Shown here: positions 7,408 through 27,518 of the stretch, piece by piece | Layout: the number at the start of each line of letters is the position of its first letter | Position numbering within the stretch: position 1 is the first letter of the stretch | Assembly: GCA_016188975.1 (NCBI GenBank) | Contig: JACPGQ010000031.1 | Location: 1-39,626, forward strand | Length of the DNA: 39,626 nucleotides | From: Candidatus Levyibacteriota bacterium | GTDB lineage: Bacteria > Patescibacteriota > Microgenomatia > Levybacterales > UBA12049 | Direction of reading: 5' to 3' | The notes under the pieces: model-generated | What the model was told of the DNA's origin: nothing | What the model saw: the letters and a program-made list of their open reading frames with translations, nothing else | Database searches by the model: none | Translations under genes and position numbers: made by a program

Positions 7408-8886
7408 ATGCTCAAAAAAGTATTTTCTCACCCTGAATGCCGCTTCCTCTTCATACTCTTATTTGGATTTTCTCTCTTGCGCCTTCCGTCTCTTTTCGAA
7501 CCAAATTGGTATGGCGATGAAGGAATTTATCAGGTACTTGGCAGGGCGATGAATGCCGGACGTATGCTTTATTCTGAGATCTGGGATAACAAGCCTCCAC
7601 TTCTTTACGTCACCTACGCGCTCGTTGATGCAAATCATTTTCTTGTTCGGTTGCTCTCATATATCGCCGGATTATTTGCTGTGTATGGTTTTTATCTCCT
7701 CACAAAACGCTTGTTTAGCGTCCAATCAGCACGCTTTATCGCAACAACTGTCTTTGCATTTCTATTTGCAATCCCAGCAACAGAAGCAAATATCGCCAAT
7801 GCGGAGAATTTCATGCTTGTTTTTCTCATTTTTGCAGGGTTTCTGGTGTTTTCTGTCAAAGACAATCTGATGCACACTACATCCCTACAAAAACTATTTG
7901 TCGCCGGGATACTTGTAGCGGTCGCGTTTCTTTACAAGATTGTTGCCGTATTTGACTTTGCTGCATTTTTTCTCTTTCTTCTTTTTCTCTCCCTTCCAGA
8001 ACGACTCTCTTTGGTACGGACAAAAAATCTGAAAACGTACCTGCGACCTGTTCTCGTTTTTTCCGCTGGGTATATAGCCCCCATTATACTTACAGGTCTC
8101 TACTTTTTACTTGTTGGAGCGTTTGCTCCCTTCCTTACTGCAACATTCACCACTAACGTTTCCTACGTCGGCTGGAGAAACTATTTTCTGATTCCTCAGG
8201 GACTGCTTCTTGCTAAATTGCTCCTTCTTGGTCTCTTTGTTCTTTTTCTCTTTTCTAAAAGAGTTTCTTTAGGGAAAACGGCACTTTTTGTCCTTCTCTG
8301 GTTTGCATTCTCGCTTTTCGGTGTCTTTTTCTCTCAACGCCCTTATACCCACTACATTCTCATGGGTATTACGAGTTTTTCGCTACTCATAGGCCTTCTT
8401 ATTTCTGAGAAACGCTTTCGAATCCTTTCACTTATCCTGATCATAATCGGAACAGTTCTGGTTATCTCAATCTTTAAACCAATCAGACCCAAATGGCTTT
8501 TAGGCTATTACACGAATTTTATCGCATACATTGCAGGACAAAAATCTCTTACTGCCTACCAAGCATTTTTTGATAGCGATATGCCGGGTAACTATGAGAT
8601 AGCACAGTTTATCTCAAGGCATACCCAAAAAAACGACATCATTTTTATCTGGGGAAATACTGCTCAAATCTACACGCTTTCAGATACACTGCCTCCGGGA
8701 CGGTATACTGTTGCCTACCATATCACAAGTTCTCAAGCACAGGCTGAAACCCAAACCGCTATCGATCAAAAGAGAGCACGATACATTGTCTTACAATCTG
8801 GAAGTGACATCCCGCAATTCCTCTTGACAGCGTATACACAAACAGCAACAATAAGCGACGCGACAATCTATGAACGGACACGTTAA
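7408..8886 (+). CDS. PMT/ArnT-like (GT39/GT83-type) integral membrane glycosyltransferase
   Basis: GDEGIYQVLGRAMNAGRMLYSEIWDNKPPLLYVTYAL; many TM helices. Confidence 0.75.
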   Translation: MLKKVFSHPECRFLFILLFGFSLLRLPSLFEPNWYGDEGIYQVLGRAMNAGRMLYSEIWDNKPPLLYVTYALVDANHFLVRLLSYIAGLFAVYGFYLLTKRLFSVQSARFIATTVFAFLFAIPATEANIANAENFMLVFLIFAGFLVFSVKDNLMHTTSLQKLFVAGILVAVAFLYKIVAVFDFAAFFLFLLFLSLPERLSLVRTKNLKTYLRPVLVFSAGYIAPIILTGLYFLLVGAFAPFLTATFTTNVSYVGWRNYFLIPQGLLLAKLLLLGLFVLFLFSKRVSLGKTALFVLLWFAFSLFGVFFSQRPYTHYILMGITSFSLLIGLLISEKRFRILSLILIIIGTVLVISIFKPIRPKWLLGYYTNFIAYIAGQKSLTAYQAFFDSDMPGNYEIAQFISRHTQKNDIIFIWGNTAQIYTLSDTLPPGRYTVAYHITSSQAQAETQTAIDQKRARYIVLQSGSDIPQFLLTAYTQTATISDATIYERTR

Positions 8887-12814: not shown

Positions 12815-14989
12815 TTAGCTTGCGGTAACTACACCAAATTCTTGTACTTTCCCTCCGCAGTATTTTATTATTTTGTCACATGCTTCCCTCAACACTGCTT
12901 CAACCTTTTGAGGAGAAATGTCAAAGACCCCATCGACATTTATGTAAAGATTTTTTGTATCCTCCCAAACAGCAGTTCGCTGTGCGTCACGGTAGTTAAA
13001 ATCGATATTGTATCCACCTGTCTGGTCAAAATATGCCAGCTCCTTCTCTGTGTATGCAGTTGGCTGTGTATCACCAAGGAGTAAAATCTTCTCGCCCGGT
13101 TTTGCGAAACGAAGTTCAGTCGGGAAACTGATTTTATCCAAATCAAATGCGCCGACAGAGACACGGTTTTTCATAACGATGAGGTTATACGCATCAACAC
13201 AGGTGTTGACGGTATACAAACCTTTCTTCAGGGCTATCCGCCGCAAGAGCGCTTCGGGACTTGGACGGCGTGAATGCCAATCAATTCCCATTGCTTTGTA
13301 CAATTTTCTGTAACTGAGAATTTCTGGAAACGCATTTATCGCATCAGTCGTCAACCCCTCCATAGATCCAAGTACTTTCTCTTTTTCCTTTTCAAGTTCA
13401 GGATGTGATTTTGTAATCGAAACATTCTTTATGATAGCGACACCGACAGAAAGACTGGAGAATGTTTCAGAAACTTTTCTACTGATTGAGAAAATCTCCG
13501 GAGTTTTGAGTGACGCTACTCCACCATCTGCTCTTGCAGCTGGTTTCTCAACTTTCAATGTCGGGAACAACACGACCTCTTTAATCGCCCATCTGTTGGT
13601 GAAAAACATGGTGAGCCTATCAATGCCAATCCCGATTCCACCAAGAGGTGGCATCCCATGCTCCATAGCCATCAAGAAATCTTCATCGACGTGCTGGGCC
13701 TCTTCTTTATCTTTCCTCTCTGCATTCGTATCCGCAGTAAATCTTGCCCGTTGGATGACTGGATCCGTCAGCTCTGACCACCCGTCGGCAACCTCTTTTC
13801 CGCCAATATATCCCTCAAAACGTTCAACCCACCCTGGTTTACTTCTATGAGTTTTTGCTAAGGGACTTATATCTTCAGGATAGTCAATGATCCAGGTAGG
13901 TGCAATAAGCGTTTTCGGAATTGTGTGATCGAATATGTTAAAGATCAACTGTCCTTTTGTTTCTCCGCCCAAAATCTGCATGTCGGGAAGGTGTTTTTTC
14001 GCATACTTCAAAAGACTCTCACGCGTTTCTTTATCAACGTCCAGTCCAAGTTTTTTCTTCAGGATCAGCTGCATCTCGATCCGAGGCCATTTTTTACCAA
14101 TGTCAATTTTTTTCTCGTCAATCTGAATCGTTGTATGCCTATAGATTTTTTTTGCCAGATGTTTAAAAAGACCCTCAGCAACATCCATCACTCGATGGTA
14201 ATCTGCATATGCTTCATACCATTCAATCATGGTGAATTCTGGAAAATGTGTTTGATCGATTCCTTCATTTCTGAAATCTTTGCAGATCTCGTAGACTCTC
14301 TCATAACCGCCGACGATGAGTCGCTTGAGATAGAGTTCGTCAGCAATTCGCAGATACATATCCTGATCAAGTGCGTTTAGATGCGTCGTAAATGGTTTAG
14401 CATTTGCCCCGCCGTAGAGTGGCTGCAATACCGGAGTCTCCGCCTCCCAGAAACCCAGATTATCCAAGTACTCTCGAACCCCACTAATAAGTTTTGTTCT
14501 TGTATTAAACCGCGCACGGACTTCAGGATTTAACAGAAGATCCAAATATCTCTGTCTGAACCGTGCCTCAACGTCTTTGAGTCCATACCATTGATTCGGC
14601 AGTGGTCGTATTGCTTTTGTCAGAAGCGTATAAGAGGAAGGAATGATAGAAATCTCCCCTGCTTCTGTTGTTCCGACTTCTCCCTCAACACCTATGATAT
14701 CGCCGATATCAAGAAGCTTGAGATTTTTGAATGCTTCTTGTCCGACTGTGTTTTTCTTGAAAAAAAGCTGGATTTTCCCCGTTTCATCTCTTAAATCAGC
14801 AAAGGCAATATTGCCATGCTCTCGAAATGAAAAAAGTCTCCCTGCCGTACTTACTCTCTTCCCCTCGGACTTCAGCGCGTCCGCGACGGTATGGGTCTTC
14901 GGATAGGACGCAGCGTACGGGTTCCATCCAAGAGCCCTGATCTTCTCAATTTTCTCTTTTCTTATTTTGATAAGCTCAGAATCATCCAT
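12815..14989 (-). CDS. lysS: class II lysyl-tRNA synthetase with C-terminal B3/4-domain fusion
   Basis: LysRS motifs 2 and 3 (EICKDFRNEGIDQTHFPEFTMIEW; GGIGIGIDRLTMFFT); C-term YRKLYKAMGIDWHSRRPSPEALLRRIALKKGLYTVNTCVDAYNLIVM matches B3/4 of PheT. Confidence 0.9.
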   Translation of the reverse strand: MDDSELIKIRKEKIEKIRALGWNPYAASYPKTHTVADALKSEGKRVSTAGRLFSFREHGNIAFADLRDETGKIQLFFKKNTVGQEAFKNLKLLDIGDIIGVEGEVGTTEAGEISIIPSSYTLLTKAIRPLPNQWYGLKDVEARFRQRYLDLLLNPEVRARFNTRTKLISGVREYLDNLGFWEAETPVLQPLYGGANAKPFTTHLNALDQDMYLRIADELYLKRLIVGGYERVYEICKDFRNEGIDQTHFPEFTMIEWYEAYADYHRVMDVAEGLFKHLAKKIYRHTTIQIDEKKIDIGKKWPRIEMQLILKKKLGLDVDKETRESLLKYAKKHLPDMQILGGETKGQLIFNIFDHTIPKTLIAPTWIIDYPEDISPLAKTHRSKPGWVERFEGYIGGKEVADGWSELTDPVIQRARFTADTNAERKDKEEAQHVDEDFLMAMEHGMPPLGGIGIGIDRLTMFFTNRWAIKEVVLFPTLKVEKPAARADGGVASLKTPEIFSISRKVSETFSSLSVGVAIIKNVSITKSHPELEKEKEKVLGSMEGLTTDAINAFPEILSYRKLYKAMGIDWHSRRPSPEALLRRIALKKGLYTVNTCVDAYNLIVMKNRVSVGAFDLDKISFPTELRFAKPGEKILLLGDTQPTAYTEKELAYFDQTGGYNIDFNYRDAQRTAVWEDTKNLYINVDGVFDISPQKVEAVLREACDKIIKYCGGKVQEFGVVTAS

Positions 14990-20249: not shown

Positions 20250-22607
20250 TTATGATGACCCGTTAGGTGTCGCCTGTCTTTGTAAGACGTAGTTATTCCT
20301 TCTTCCTCCCTCGACACGTTCTGTAAGAAACGCACTTGCAATATAAGATGGGAAGTAGCTCACTCCAACTTTTCGATAAAAAGCTCTCCATTCAACTTGT
20401 TGATCACTTGGTAGTCCTTCCTCATCTTCTGGAGCAGGAAGCAAAACCATATCTGCATCAGGAAAATGGTCTGCGGCAATGACCGGAAGCGTTTCATGAT
20501 CTAATGGATCCCTCTCAATTTTATTAGTCATTCTGTCAACTATTGCCGCTGGATCACTGATGTCCCATGAAGCGAGGAACCGATCGCCACTCAAACCACC
20601 ACCATAGGGATCTTCCTCATAAGACACGACACGTGCTCCCATTTTCCTCAAATAGACGTTCGCGTTTCTCACCTTCAATGGATCATATGTGAAGAGAAGT
20701 TTTTCGACATTTGCCTTTGCTGCTTCCAAAAAGAGAACCTTAATTGCATCATACCCAATACCTTTATCTCGTAGATCTTCACGGACTCCGATCATATCAA
20801 GAAGAAATGTTCCTTTCTCAGCAGTGGGCCAGGTATAGGAAAACCCAACAACTTCGCCAGCGGCATCCATCGTTGCGATAACAAATCCACCCAATTTATT
20901 AAGTGTTGCAAGCATGTGTCCCGGACACGCATCGCTTTCAGAGAGATCAAACGCATCTTGCTGTAATGGCACAGTTTTTTCCAAATCCTTCGGGTTCGTA
21001 ACCCTACTGAATGTATACATCTGCCCATCTATCTCTTTTGTGTATCCTTCGTCTATTGTGGTAAAACCTAATCGTTCGGCAATATCTACCTGATCCTTCT
21101 CCTGCCTTTTATCTCCTGTCTCTGAAGTCTTTGCGTTATTTCCGCTTTTCGGTTTCAATGTTGGAAAATAGATTGTCTGCCTTATATGATCTGTGTCTGT
21201 AAGAAGCATGGTCCACCTATCAATTGAAATGCCAATTCCTGCTTGTGGAGGCATGCCATACTCTTGAGCAAGAAGATAATCTTCATCAAACGGCATAGCG
21301 TCTTCGTCACCTTGACTTCTCTTCGTCCGCTCTAACTCAAAACGTACTCGCTGATCACGTGGATCATTAAGCTCCGTATATGCGTTCATGACCTCTATCC
21401 CACCAACGTACGCTTCAAATCGCTGTGCAATATCAGGGTTATGCGGATCTCGTTTCGCCAGGGCGCTTGTATCAGCCGGATAATCCATGACAAACGTTGG
21501 TTGCATAAGCTCATCCCCCCACAACTCCTCAAACAGATTCACTAAGAGATCACCTCTTGTGAAACCTGTTACGTCATGTGCTGCTGCGATAACCCGGAGC
21601 TGATCGTCTGGAATTTCATCTGGATCAAGTCCTAATTTCTCTCGAATTCCTTCTCGTATAGGAAGCCTTCTCCAGGGAGTTTTCACATCAATCATTCGAC
21701 TACCAAAGTTAATCTGAGTACCTCCTGTGATCTCTCGAGTAATACCTTCCATCATTTGTTCTGCCATCTGCATCAAATCTCTGTAATCCCAGAACGGTTT
21801 GTAGAGCTCAACCATAGTAAATTCAGGATTATGTGTCCTATCCATTCCCTCATTGCGAAAATCCCTGGCAAACTCAAAGACACCATTATAGTATCCTCCA
21901 ACTGTCATTCGTTTAAGGTATAACTCGTTTGCAATTCTCATATACACTTTTGTTTTAAGAGCGTTATGATAGCTCTCAAAGGGTTTTGCGTAGGCACCTC
22001 CATATGTTGTATCAAGAATTGGGGTTTCCATCTCAGTTGCTCCGACAACGTTTGTAAAATAATCCCTCATGCCATCTACAATCCGTGAACGGACACGGAA
22101 CCGTTCTCTTGCATCCGGGTTAACAAGTGTATCTAAATATCGCTGTCTCTGTTGGGTCTCTGGATCAGTGACCTCTTGAGGAATTGGACGTAGCGACTTT
22201 GCCTGCATTACCATTTCACTTGAAAAGATAGAGATCTCCCCGGCTTGTGTCTTCTCAAGTACTCCCGTAGTGCCAACAAAATCTCCTTCACTGAAGTAAT
22301 CTCTGAATAGCCTGTATTCGGGGGTCACTAACGTCCGTTTATTTATAACAGATTGAAGTATTGCCGTCTGATCATCCAAATCAACAAACGAGATATTGCC
22401 GTGAACTCGTTTCCCAATCATTCTCCCGACTGCCTGGACCTCTTGGCCTTGAAGAGTATAGAAGCTATCGTGAAGCTGTGAAAGGGTATGTGTGGGCCTA
22501 TGTGGTTCTGCTGGAAATAGATCAATCCCTGCTTGCTCTAAAGCATCTGCTTGGGCAAGACGTTGTTCATACGCCTCATTTGTTTGAGCCATAAATATTG
22601 TTGGCAA
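20250..22607 (-). CDS. second class II LysRS with C-terminal GNAT acetyltransferase-like domain
   Basis: OB-fold VGRMIGKRVHGNISFVDLDD; motif 2 FARDFRNEGMDRTHNPEFTMVEL; motif 3 GIGISIDRWTMLLT; C-term LLDMIGVREDLRDKGIGYDAIKVLFLEAAKANVEKLLFTYDPLKVRNANVYLRKMGARVVSYEEDPYGG. Confidence 0.9.
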   Translation of the reverse strand: MPTIFMAQTNEAYEQRLAQADALEQAGIDLFPAEPHRPTHTLSQLHDSFYTLQGQEVQAVGRMIGKRVHGNISFVDLDDQTAILQSVINKRTLVTPEYRLFRDYFSEGDFVGTTGVLEKTQAGEISIFSSEMVMQAKSLRPIPQEVTDPETQQRQRYLDTLVNPDARERFRVRSRIVDGMRDYFTNVVGATEMETPILDTTYGGAYAKPFESYHNALKTKVYMRIANELYLKRMTVGGYYNGVFEFARDFRNEGMDRTHNPEFTMVELYKPFWDYRDLMQMAEQMMEGITREITGGTQINFGSRMIDVKTPWRRLPIREGIREKLGLDPDEIPDDQLRVIAAAHDVTGFTRGDLLVNLFEELWGDELMQPTFVMDYPADTSALAKRDPHNPDIAQRFEAYVGGIEVMNAYTELNDPRDQRVRFELERTKRSQGDEDAMPFDEDYLLAQEYGMPPQAGIGISIDRWTMLLTDTDHIRQTIYFPTLKPKSGNNAKTSETGDKRQEKDQVDIAERLGFTTIDEGYTKEIDGQMYTFSRVTNPKDLEKTVPLQQDAFDLSESDACPGHMLATLNKLGGFVIATMDAAGEVVGFSYTWPTAEKGTFLLDMIGVREDLRDKGIGYDAIKVLFLEAAKANVEKLLFTYDPLKVRNANVYLRKMGARVVSYEEDPYGGGLSGDRFLASWDISDPAAIVDRMTNKIERDPLDHETLPVIAADHFPDADMVLLPAPEDEEGLPSDQQVEWRAFYRKVGVSYFPSYIASAFLTERVEGGRRNNYVLQRQATPNGSS

Positions 22608-27298: not shown

Positions 27299-27383
27299 AT
27301 TAAATACTTTTTAACACTTACAAGTGCAAACGCATAAACGTAATGAATCTCCGTAAAGAATATATCTTTCGATTAAAATAAAA

Positions 27384-27401
27384 ACCCCTCGCCTGAGGGG
27401 T
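27384..27401 (-). terminator. intrinsic terminator/attenuator hairpin
   Basis: minus strand ACCCCTCaggcGAGGGGT followed by TTTTATTTT. Confidence 0.85.
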
Positions 27402-27419
27402 CCTTACAAACACAAAGGC

Positions 27420-27440
27420 AACCCCTACTTAGGAGAGGTT
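27420..27440 (-). promoter_or_regulatory. anti-antiterminator-like hairpin overlapping the leader peptide stop
   Basis: minus strand AACCTCTCCTAAGTAGGGGTT; 3' arm can alternatively pair with the 5' arm of the terminator. Confidence 0.6.
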
Positions 27441-27476
27441 CTTTTTCTTGTTTAATGACGATTGTGCAATATTCAT
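27429..27476 (-). CDS. candidate 15-aa leader peptide MNIAQSSLNKKKNLS
   Basis: ATG AAT ATT GCA CAA TCG TCA TTA AAC AAG AAA AAG AAC CTC TCC TAA, three consecutive Lys codons next to hairpin 1. Confidence 0.65.
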   Translation of the reverse strand: MNIAQSSLNKKKNLS

Positions 27477-27489
27477 AGCGACAACATGG

Positions 27490-27518
27490 ATTTTCTAACA
27501 ATTCATTTTGTTTGTCAA
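27490..27518 (-). promoter_or_regulatory. candidate sigma70-type promoter for attenuated M20 gene
   Basis: minus strand TTGACA-17 nt-GAAAAT just upstream of the leader ORF. Confidence 0.6.

Follow-up and report, generated by a model that had tools for sequence, protein, structure and literature searches.

A probable lysine-codon leader-peptide attenuator in front of an M20 metallohydrolase gene in a Patescibacteria-like genome

Leader-peptide attenuation in its classical form is known above all from operons for Trp, His, Phe, Thr, Leu and Ile/Val, and lysine genes are usually described as being under riboswitch or T-box control. In the classical attenuators of Proteobacteria (trp, his, thr, leu, ilv and phe) and Actinobacteria (trp, trpS and leuS; PMC1262725), a leader ORF places its control codons by RNA segment 1 and its stop codon near segment 2, the pairings 1:2, 2:3 and 3:4 exclude one another, an intrinsic terminator is formed, and the regulated gene belongs to the same amino-acid pathway or encodes its synthetase. 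The element described here, which precedes a gene for an M20-family metallohydrolase, resembles these systems in each respect. It is located in the 39.6-kb stretch of DNA analysed (hereafter the window) from genome G000 (1.31 Mb, 94% complete). Unlike the classical attenuators, leaders of this type are proposed to sense lysine, head LysRS genes, DAP-pathway units and the M20 gene, and occur in Patescibacteria-like genomes. They also differ in having a start codon only a few nucleotides from the predicted transcription start with no Shine-Dalgarno motif, and in having a Lys-codon region that pairs with a helper strand (2b), which in turn pairs with a second helper (3a).

Several other described systems share part of this build. 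The pheST attenuator and the trpS and leuS attenuators of Streptomyces (PMC1262725) likewise control a synthetase gene via its cognate codons, whereas the genes concerned here are those for LysRS, ThrRS, MetRS, ArgRS and GatC in a different bacterial group. The SEP5 candidate leader peptide of S. meliloti (PMC10117765) resembles the M20 leader in that its short ORF lies in a 5' UTR before an aspartate-pathway gene and contains Thr and Lys codons, but its codons are mainly Thr, it is confined to one genus, and the available part of that report describes no terminator/antiterminator system for it. A 2005 survey of Actinobacteria found no lysine leader-peptide attenuator and cited the L-box for lysine (PMC1262725). 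Our search, which covered open-access papers, found neither a lysine leader-peptide attenuator nor a paper combining Patescibacteria-like bacteria with leader-peptide attenuation. By class, the element is an ordinary ribosome-mediated attenuator, and its lysine specificity and Patescibacteria-like home appear undescribed in open-access papers.

The L-box and the lysine T-box are also RNA devices that control lysine genes by transcription termination, as is predicted here, but the present element is proposed to require translation of a Lys-codon ORF. In other phyla, these are the RNA devices that lysine genes are usually described as having upstream, and for lysine PMC1262725 cites the L-box. 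However, no Rfam family was matched at the gathering score in the window, neither an L-box aptamer nor the features of a T-box were recognized, the element is too short (~110 nt) for either architecture, and its leader reading frame is conserved. We therefore regard a lysine riboswitch or T-box in place of a leader-peptide attenuator as extremely improbable.

Ahead of the M20 gene, minus-strand positions 27518 to 27375 hold in succession a predicted promoter, the leader ORF, segments 1 and 2 and a 3:4 terminator (Table 1). The promoter, ORF, Lys codons, four segments and M20 start codon were all confirmed in the sequence as the preliminary description had placed them. Promoter hexamers by themselves prove nothing, since the consensus scan found 19 promoter-like sites in 10 kb when 18.7 were expected; the TTGACA hexamer is kept at the homologous place in four related genomes (G001, G045, G055 and G024). 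The ATG of the leader ORF lies ~7 nt downstream of the predicted transcription start and lacks a Shine-Dalgarno motif. Among the leaders measured by eye, start codons are located ~7-13 nt from the predicted -10 box, again with no Shine-Dalgarno motif, which suggests that translation may begin on a transcript that is leaderless or nearly so. A leaderless trpL has been reported in S. meliloti (PMC10117765). The terminator (CCCCUC-AGGC-GAGGGG-UUUUUAUUUU) comprises a GC stem and a U tract before the structural gene and is much more stable than shuffled sequences (z = -3.8, 0 of 200), and 76 nt separate the end of the element from the M20 gene.

Table 1. Coordinates of the leader element and its flanking genes in the window.
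Feature	Position	Strand	Details and basis
Upstream gene, 341 aa	27538..28563	-	No family match; last gene of murB-side unit
Predicted promoter	27490..27518	-	TTGACA 27518-27513, 17-nt spacer, GAAAAT 27495-27490; sequence and consensus scan
Leader ORF MNIAQSSLNKKKNLS	ATG 27476 to TAA 27429	-	15 codons, ending in NKKKNLS and stop
Control codons AAG AAA AAG (Lys-Lys-Lys)	27441..27449	-	Sequence; Lys codons also here in related leaders
Segment 1 (AACCTCTCCT; RNA AACCUCUCCU)	27431..27440	-	Overlaps final leader codons; folding and swap test
Segment 2 with helper 2b	27415..27426	-	AGGGGUU 27426-27420 and CCUU 27418-27415; folding and swap tests
Segment 3 with helper 3a	27395..27405	-	AAGG 27405-27402 and ACCCCUC 27401-27395; folding and swap test
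Segment 4 with U tract	27375..27390	-	GAGGGG 27390-27385 and U tract 27384-27375; 3' half of predicted intrinsic terminator
M20-family metallohydrolase, 374 aa	26174..27298 (ATG 27298)	-	Pfam PF01546, 2.5e-21

The leader DNA was compared with 147 related genomes. G001, a member of the same genus, matched strongly (E 5e-12), as did G045 (3e-4); G055 and G024 matched weakly, in each case on the contig that holds the M20 homologue. The corresponding leader peptides are MKIAVLSSRTANNVNGVNKKKGLS (G001), MICQTTSTNTKKDPH (G045), MNINFVFSKKTKKNPL (G055) and MINNFSGLLKKTKKNLS (G024, with a GTG start). On inspection by eye, each of these leaders presents TTGACA, a short ORF with Lys codons directly before segment 1, a stop codon between segments 1 and 2, a G-run, a C-run and a terminator. 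A covariance model built from four leaders was then run over 73 family genomes and returned ~20 further Lys leaders, including MRTQIISSKSKKNFS, MQTRVTLVANKKNLS, MNFVNTFAKKAKKPLS and MNLQLTTKKTKKSLF, for a family total of ~24. Because it was built from Lys-codon sequences, the model favours A-rich hits, and it gives no preference for reading frame, start codon or downstream genes. Class-wide matches with E near 0.003-0.02 are partly due to chance (e.g. L166, L168, L176 and L180). In a second leader type, the ORF runs through segment 2 (ending in KKAKKNLSLRGFVLA) and stops just past helper 2b; a ribosome terminating there would keep 2b blocked. No second copy of the leader was found by a DNA pattern search of G000 itself.

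These comparisons bear on the possibility that the element is a mere intrinsic terminator of the unit formed by murB and the 341-aa ORF, with the Lys ORF and second hairpin present by chance and the M20 promoter located below the terminator. A strong terminator does separate the two genes, and a low-GC genome easily yields A-rich ORFs. Relatives carrying a terminator alone, which the preliminary description had named as the finding that would count against it, were looked for, but in-frame Lys codons, stop-codon placement and competing helices proved to be kept, and this conservation is already a strong argument against a terminator-only arrangement. Moreover, a blind geometric scan for a terminator combined with a competing antiterminator arm and with a short ORF whose end lies at the proper position identified exactly one candidate on both strands of the window, the M20 leader. 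The same scan of 1273 kb (both strands) of other G000 sequence, a sample of stretches of the genome that served as background, yielded six candidates, none of them Lys-rich, so this geometry occurs once in the window and is rare elsewhere in the genome. The stretch from the terminator to the M20 start holds no good promoter, the sole listed site overlapping the ATG. Overall, a chance arrangement around a simple terminator is highly improbable. Among the genomes compared, G000 alone has the 341-aa gene placed between murB and the leader; a single homologue of its protein (33%) is encoded by G106, which belongs to another family.

The competing helices were evaluated by folding. The 1:2 helix comprises 7 bp, one of them G-U. 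Perfect pairing of AGGGGT with ACCCCT had been proposed for 2:3, and this pairing is present but longer than the 6 bp given, since CCUU and AAGG of the two helpers extend it to 10 bp (-11.3 kcal/mol). Segment 3 can pair either with 2/2b, as an antiterminator, or with segment 4, as the terminator, and the helices 1:2, 2:3 and 3:4 are mutually exclusive. When nascent RNA was folded with a ribosome mask on the Lys codons, 2:3 was formed; with the mask at the stop codon, 3:4 alone was formed; and with no ribosome, 1:2 and 3:4 both folded. These nascent structures are as expected for such an attenuator, but in the complete transcript at equilibrium the terminator wins in all cases, even when the ribosome occupies the Lys codons (-21.1 kcal/mol). 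Antitermination must therefore be kinetic, as in trp attenuation, for which a kinetic switch is accepted.

Swap tests were conducted with 24 leaders, in which pairing of segment 2 with the leader's own segment 3 gave -13.45 kcal/mol versus -10.49 kcal/mol with segment 3 of other leaders (permutation p = 0.0002), a result that is unchanged when one leader per genus is used. The test was also positive for 1:2 (p = 0.0002) and for the inner helper helix, which lacks G/C runs. Across 28 leaders, this inner helix is more stable than dinucleotide shuffles (Fisher p = 2e-7, with related leaders treated as independent). Column covariation is seen for 3:4 (12 double-change cells across 28 leaders versus 3.3 when shuffled), but not in a column-wise count of the 2:3 G-run and C-run. 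The negative count probably results from GGGAGG-type leaders shifting in the alignment, and the swap test was used instead.

These characteristics lead us to conclude, from sequence analysis, that the M20 leader is very probably a ribosome-mediated transcription attenuator of the trp/his leader-peptide type that senses charged tRNA-Lys. When lysine is plentiful, the ribosome would read the leader ORF to its stop codon and cover segment 2, such that 3:4 forms and transcription halts upstream of M20. When charged tRNA-Lys is short, the ribosome would stall on the Lys codons and cover segment 1, such that segment 2 and helper 2b pair with 3a and segment 3 upon their transcription, which would forestall the terminator and allow M20 to be expressed. 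In the absence of a ribosome, 1:2 would form and be lengthened where the Lys-codon region pairs with the nucleotides that follow segment 2, leaving segment 3 free and leading to termination. We infer actual termination and its dependence on tRNA-Lys from the computed anatomy, conservation, helices, codons and gene linkage.

The genes behind the leaders are informative about the amino acid that would be sensed. Most of the ~24 family leaders head units that contain LysRS, DapL, LysA, aspartokinase, DapF or M20, although for several others the contig ends before the downstream genes. In G001, the leader has murB on one side and, on the other, the genes that it heads, dapL-lysA-lysC-dapB-dapA-asd and then a LysRS homologue. 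The dapL (566.6 bits, cut-off 364.7), dapA (346, cut-off 206) and dapB (144, cut-off 122) products score above their cut-offs, lysA scores slightly below (287, cut-off 297.9), and the aspartokinase is nearest to the lysine-sensitive AK3 (445.8, cut-off 455). The G045 unit encodes a DapF-like protein and a class I LysRS (353 bits, cut-off 147.6). LysRS is present in the unit behind 15 leaders (G001, G045, G055, G050, G061, G040, G033, G041, G060, G032, G066, G035, G069, G053 and G063), and DapL, LysA or aspartokinase is found behind those of G001, G042, G064, G046 and G053. A Lys leader also precedes class I LysRS in G038 and, from outside the family, in G261. The control codons thus match the pathway of the downstream DAP-pathway and LysRS genes and, by association, that of M20 itself. 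Regulation by lysine, which had been put forward as an inference, gains support from the conservation of Lys codons and from these lysine-biosynthesis and LysRS units. In G000, the leader heads M20 alone and not LysRS. The window also contains two class II LysRS genes above the family cut-off (12815-14989 and 20250-22607, minus strand), the latter with a C-terminal GNAT acetyltransferase-like stretch; the blind scan found no such leader upstream of either.

It might be argued that the attenuator senses something other than, or in addition to, lysine, for example Asn, or that it responds to arrest by a nascent Lys-rich peptide. AAC codons flank the Lys codons in G000 and several relatives, and some related leaders are ambiguous, such as that on contig C24 of G033 (MNKNLQINNKKNTS), which has no lysine gene behind it. 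However, Lys codons persist across leaders while the residues around them vary (TKKTKKN, SKKDKKS, KIIKKHS and NTKKDP), and the downstream genes serve lysine and not asparagine. Furthermore, where a similarly built leader stands ahead of a different synthetase, its codons are for the cognate residue and not for Lys. ThrRS is preceded by TTTT leaders in G378, G021 and G047, MetRS by an MMEM leader in G333, ArgRS by an RR leader and GatC by an NTQNQ leader in G005, and HisG by an HH leader in G022. Sensing of a signal other than lysine is therefore very unlikely.

Loci with such gene-matched leaders in other Patescibacteria-like genomes are L164, L157 and L158 (ThrRS), L162 (MetRS), L161 (ArgRS), L160 (GatC), L149 (HisG) and L117, where a bacillithiol-type deacetylase gene stands behind a Cys-Cys leader. 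An aspartokinase of G090 is located behind a Lys+Thr leader, and a Thr leader in G001 precedes a short aspartokinase-like protein and ThrRS. Thirty ThrRS upstream regions, picked by protein family and not by the covariance model, yielded nine candidate leaders, of which eight have at least three Thr among their ten final codons. For the majority of the 30 regions there was no candidate, indicating that the device is not universal or that the scan is strict. One of the regions with a Thr-rich candidate belongs to the ThrRS gene of G000 itself. This gene, on contig C57 (L151), is preceded by two Thr leaders in series (C57:8042-8114 and 7523-7598, minus strand), encoding MKIAGIMTTTKTP and a peptide ending in ETTTATVT, each with a terminator. 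Farther upstream at this locus are two Val/Leu-rich leader-like ORFs, MNSMNRNLVLNVVVLLLTKGGYVVAR and MSEKCSRIELVNRNLVLTGLIVLLITRGGDVLGMR. Another leader-like arrangement was noted at L089 in G000 (minus strand, ~6345 of the reverse complement), where a Val-rich ORF ending in REVVTVVV is accompanied by terminator geometry.

The M20 protein is DapE/ArgE-like but lies under every equivalog cut-off shown. Its best NCBIfam model is PRK13009 (127.9 bits versus a cut-off of 284), which falls short of a DapE equivalog. Its nearest solved chains are DapE (9e-20), and its nearest named records are from Patescibacteria/Paceibacterota bins (44-46% identity), which suggests that G000 belongs to the Patescibacteria. 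A close homologue is present in four of the 147 genomes, G000 included, and all four carry a Lys leader. In G055, G024 and G050, M20 is the second gene behind the leader, after a GNAT-like or unknown gene; a more distant homologue in G060 is likewise second, and in three of these four genomes LysRS comes next after M20. In G055, G024 and G050 the leader is not immediately upstream of the M20 homologue but one gene farther up, so that inspection of the M20 upstream regions alone is misleading. Around the M20 homologues in L006, L007 and L008, a search revealed no leader.

An alternative is that the attenuator is real but that in G000 it merely survives, as a relict, from a lysine operon since lost, with M20 unrelated to lysine supply. 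LysA was not detected in G000, while the same-genus genome G001 keeps the whole operon behind a homologous leader, and M20 stands alone behind the G000 leader. Against this, the repeated placement of M20 as the second gene behind Lys leaders in other genomes, with LysRS next in three of them, the presence of the leader in every genome with a close M20 homologue among the 147 searched, and the intact promoter, ORF and helices of the G000 leader can be cited. We consider a relict rather unlikely.

We favour instead a part for M20 in lysine supply, as the preliminary description had suggested. The genomic context agrees: each family genome in which M20 was detected has it behind a Lys leader, and LysA was not detected in G000, which together make a lysine salvage role for the gene likely. 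LysA was also not detected in most of the other leader genomes. These data would fit a deacylase that frees lysine, or one of its precursors, in a lysine-auxotrophic cell, and M20 might supply lysine or its precursor from an N-acylated or peptide form. In G061 and G040, a histone-deacetylase-family protein takes the place of M20 (the family was checked for G061). At L131:6103-7065 and L131:7113-8183 (both minus strand) and L006:851-4074, genes of the GNAT-like, histone-deacetylase-family and M20 kinds are found side by side or replace one another, and those in L131 stand behind a Lys leader. It is possible that these three kinds of genes constitute a set for salvage of lysine conjugates.

More broadly, we think it reasonably likely that Patescibacteria commonly use leader attenuation with gene-matched codons to control aminoacyl-tRNA synthetases and the supply of amino acids (Lys, Thr, Met, Arg, Asn/Gln and His, probably with others), that functions can be assigned from it, and that lysine auxotrophs salvage lysine by a route made up of the M20, HDAC-like and GNAT-like genes that lie behind Lys leaders. 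The conserved Lys-codon attenuator suggests that these ultra-small, mostly uncultured bacteria sense amino-acid shortage via the ribosome. Because leader codons name the amino acid, they offer predicted regulation for genes of unknown function, and the Lys leaders point to a lysine salvage pathway where lysine synthesis was not found.
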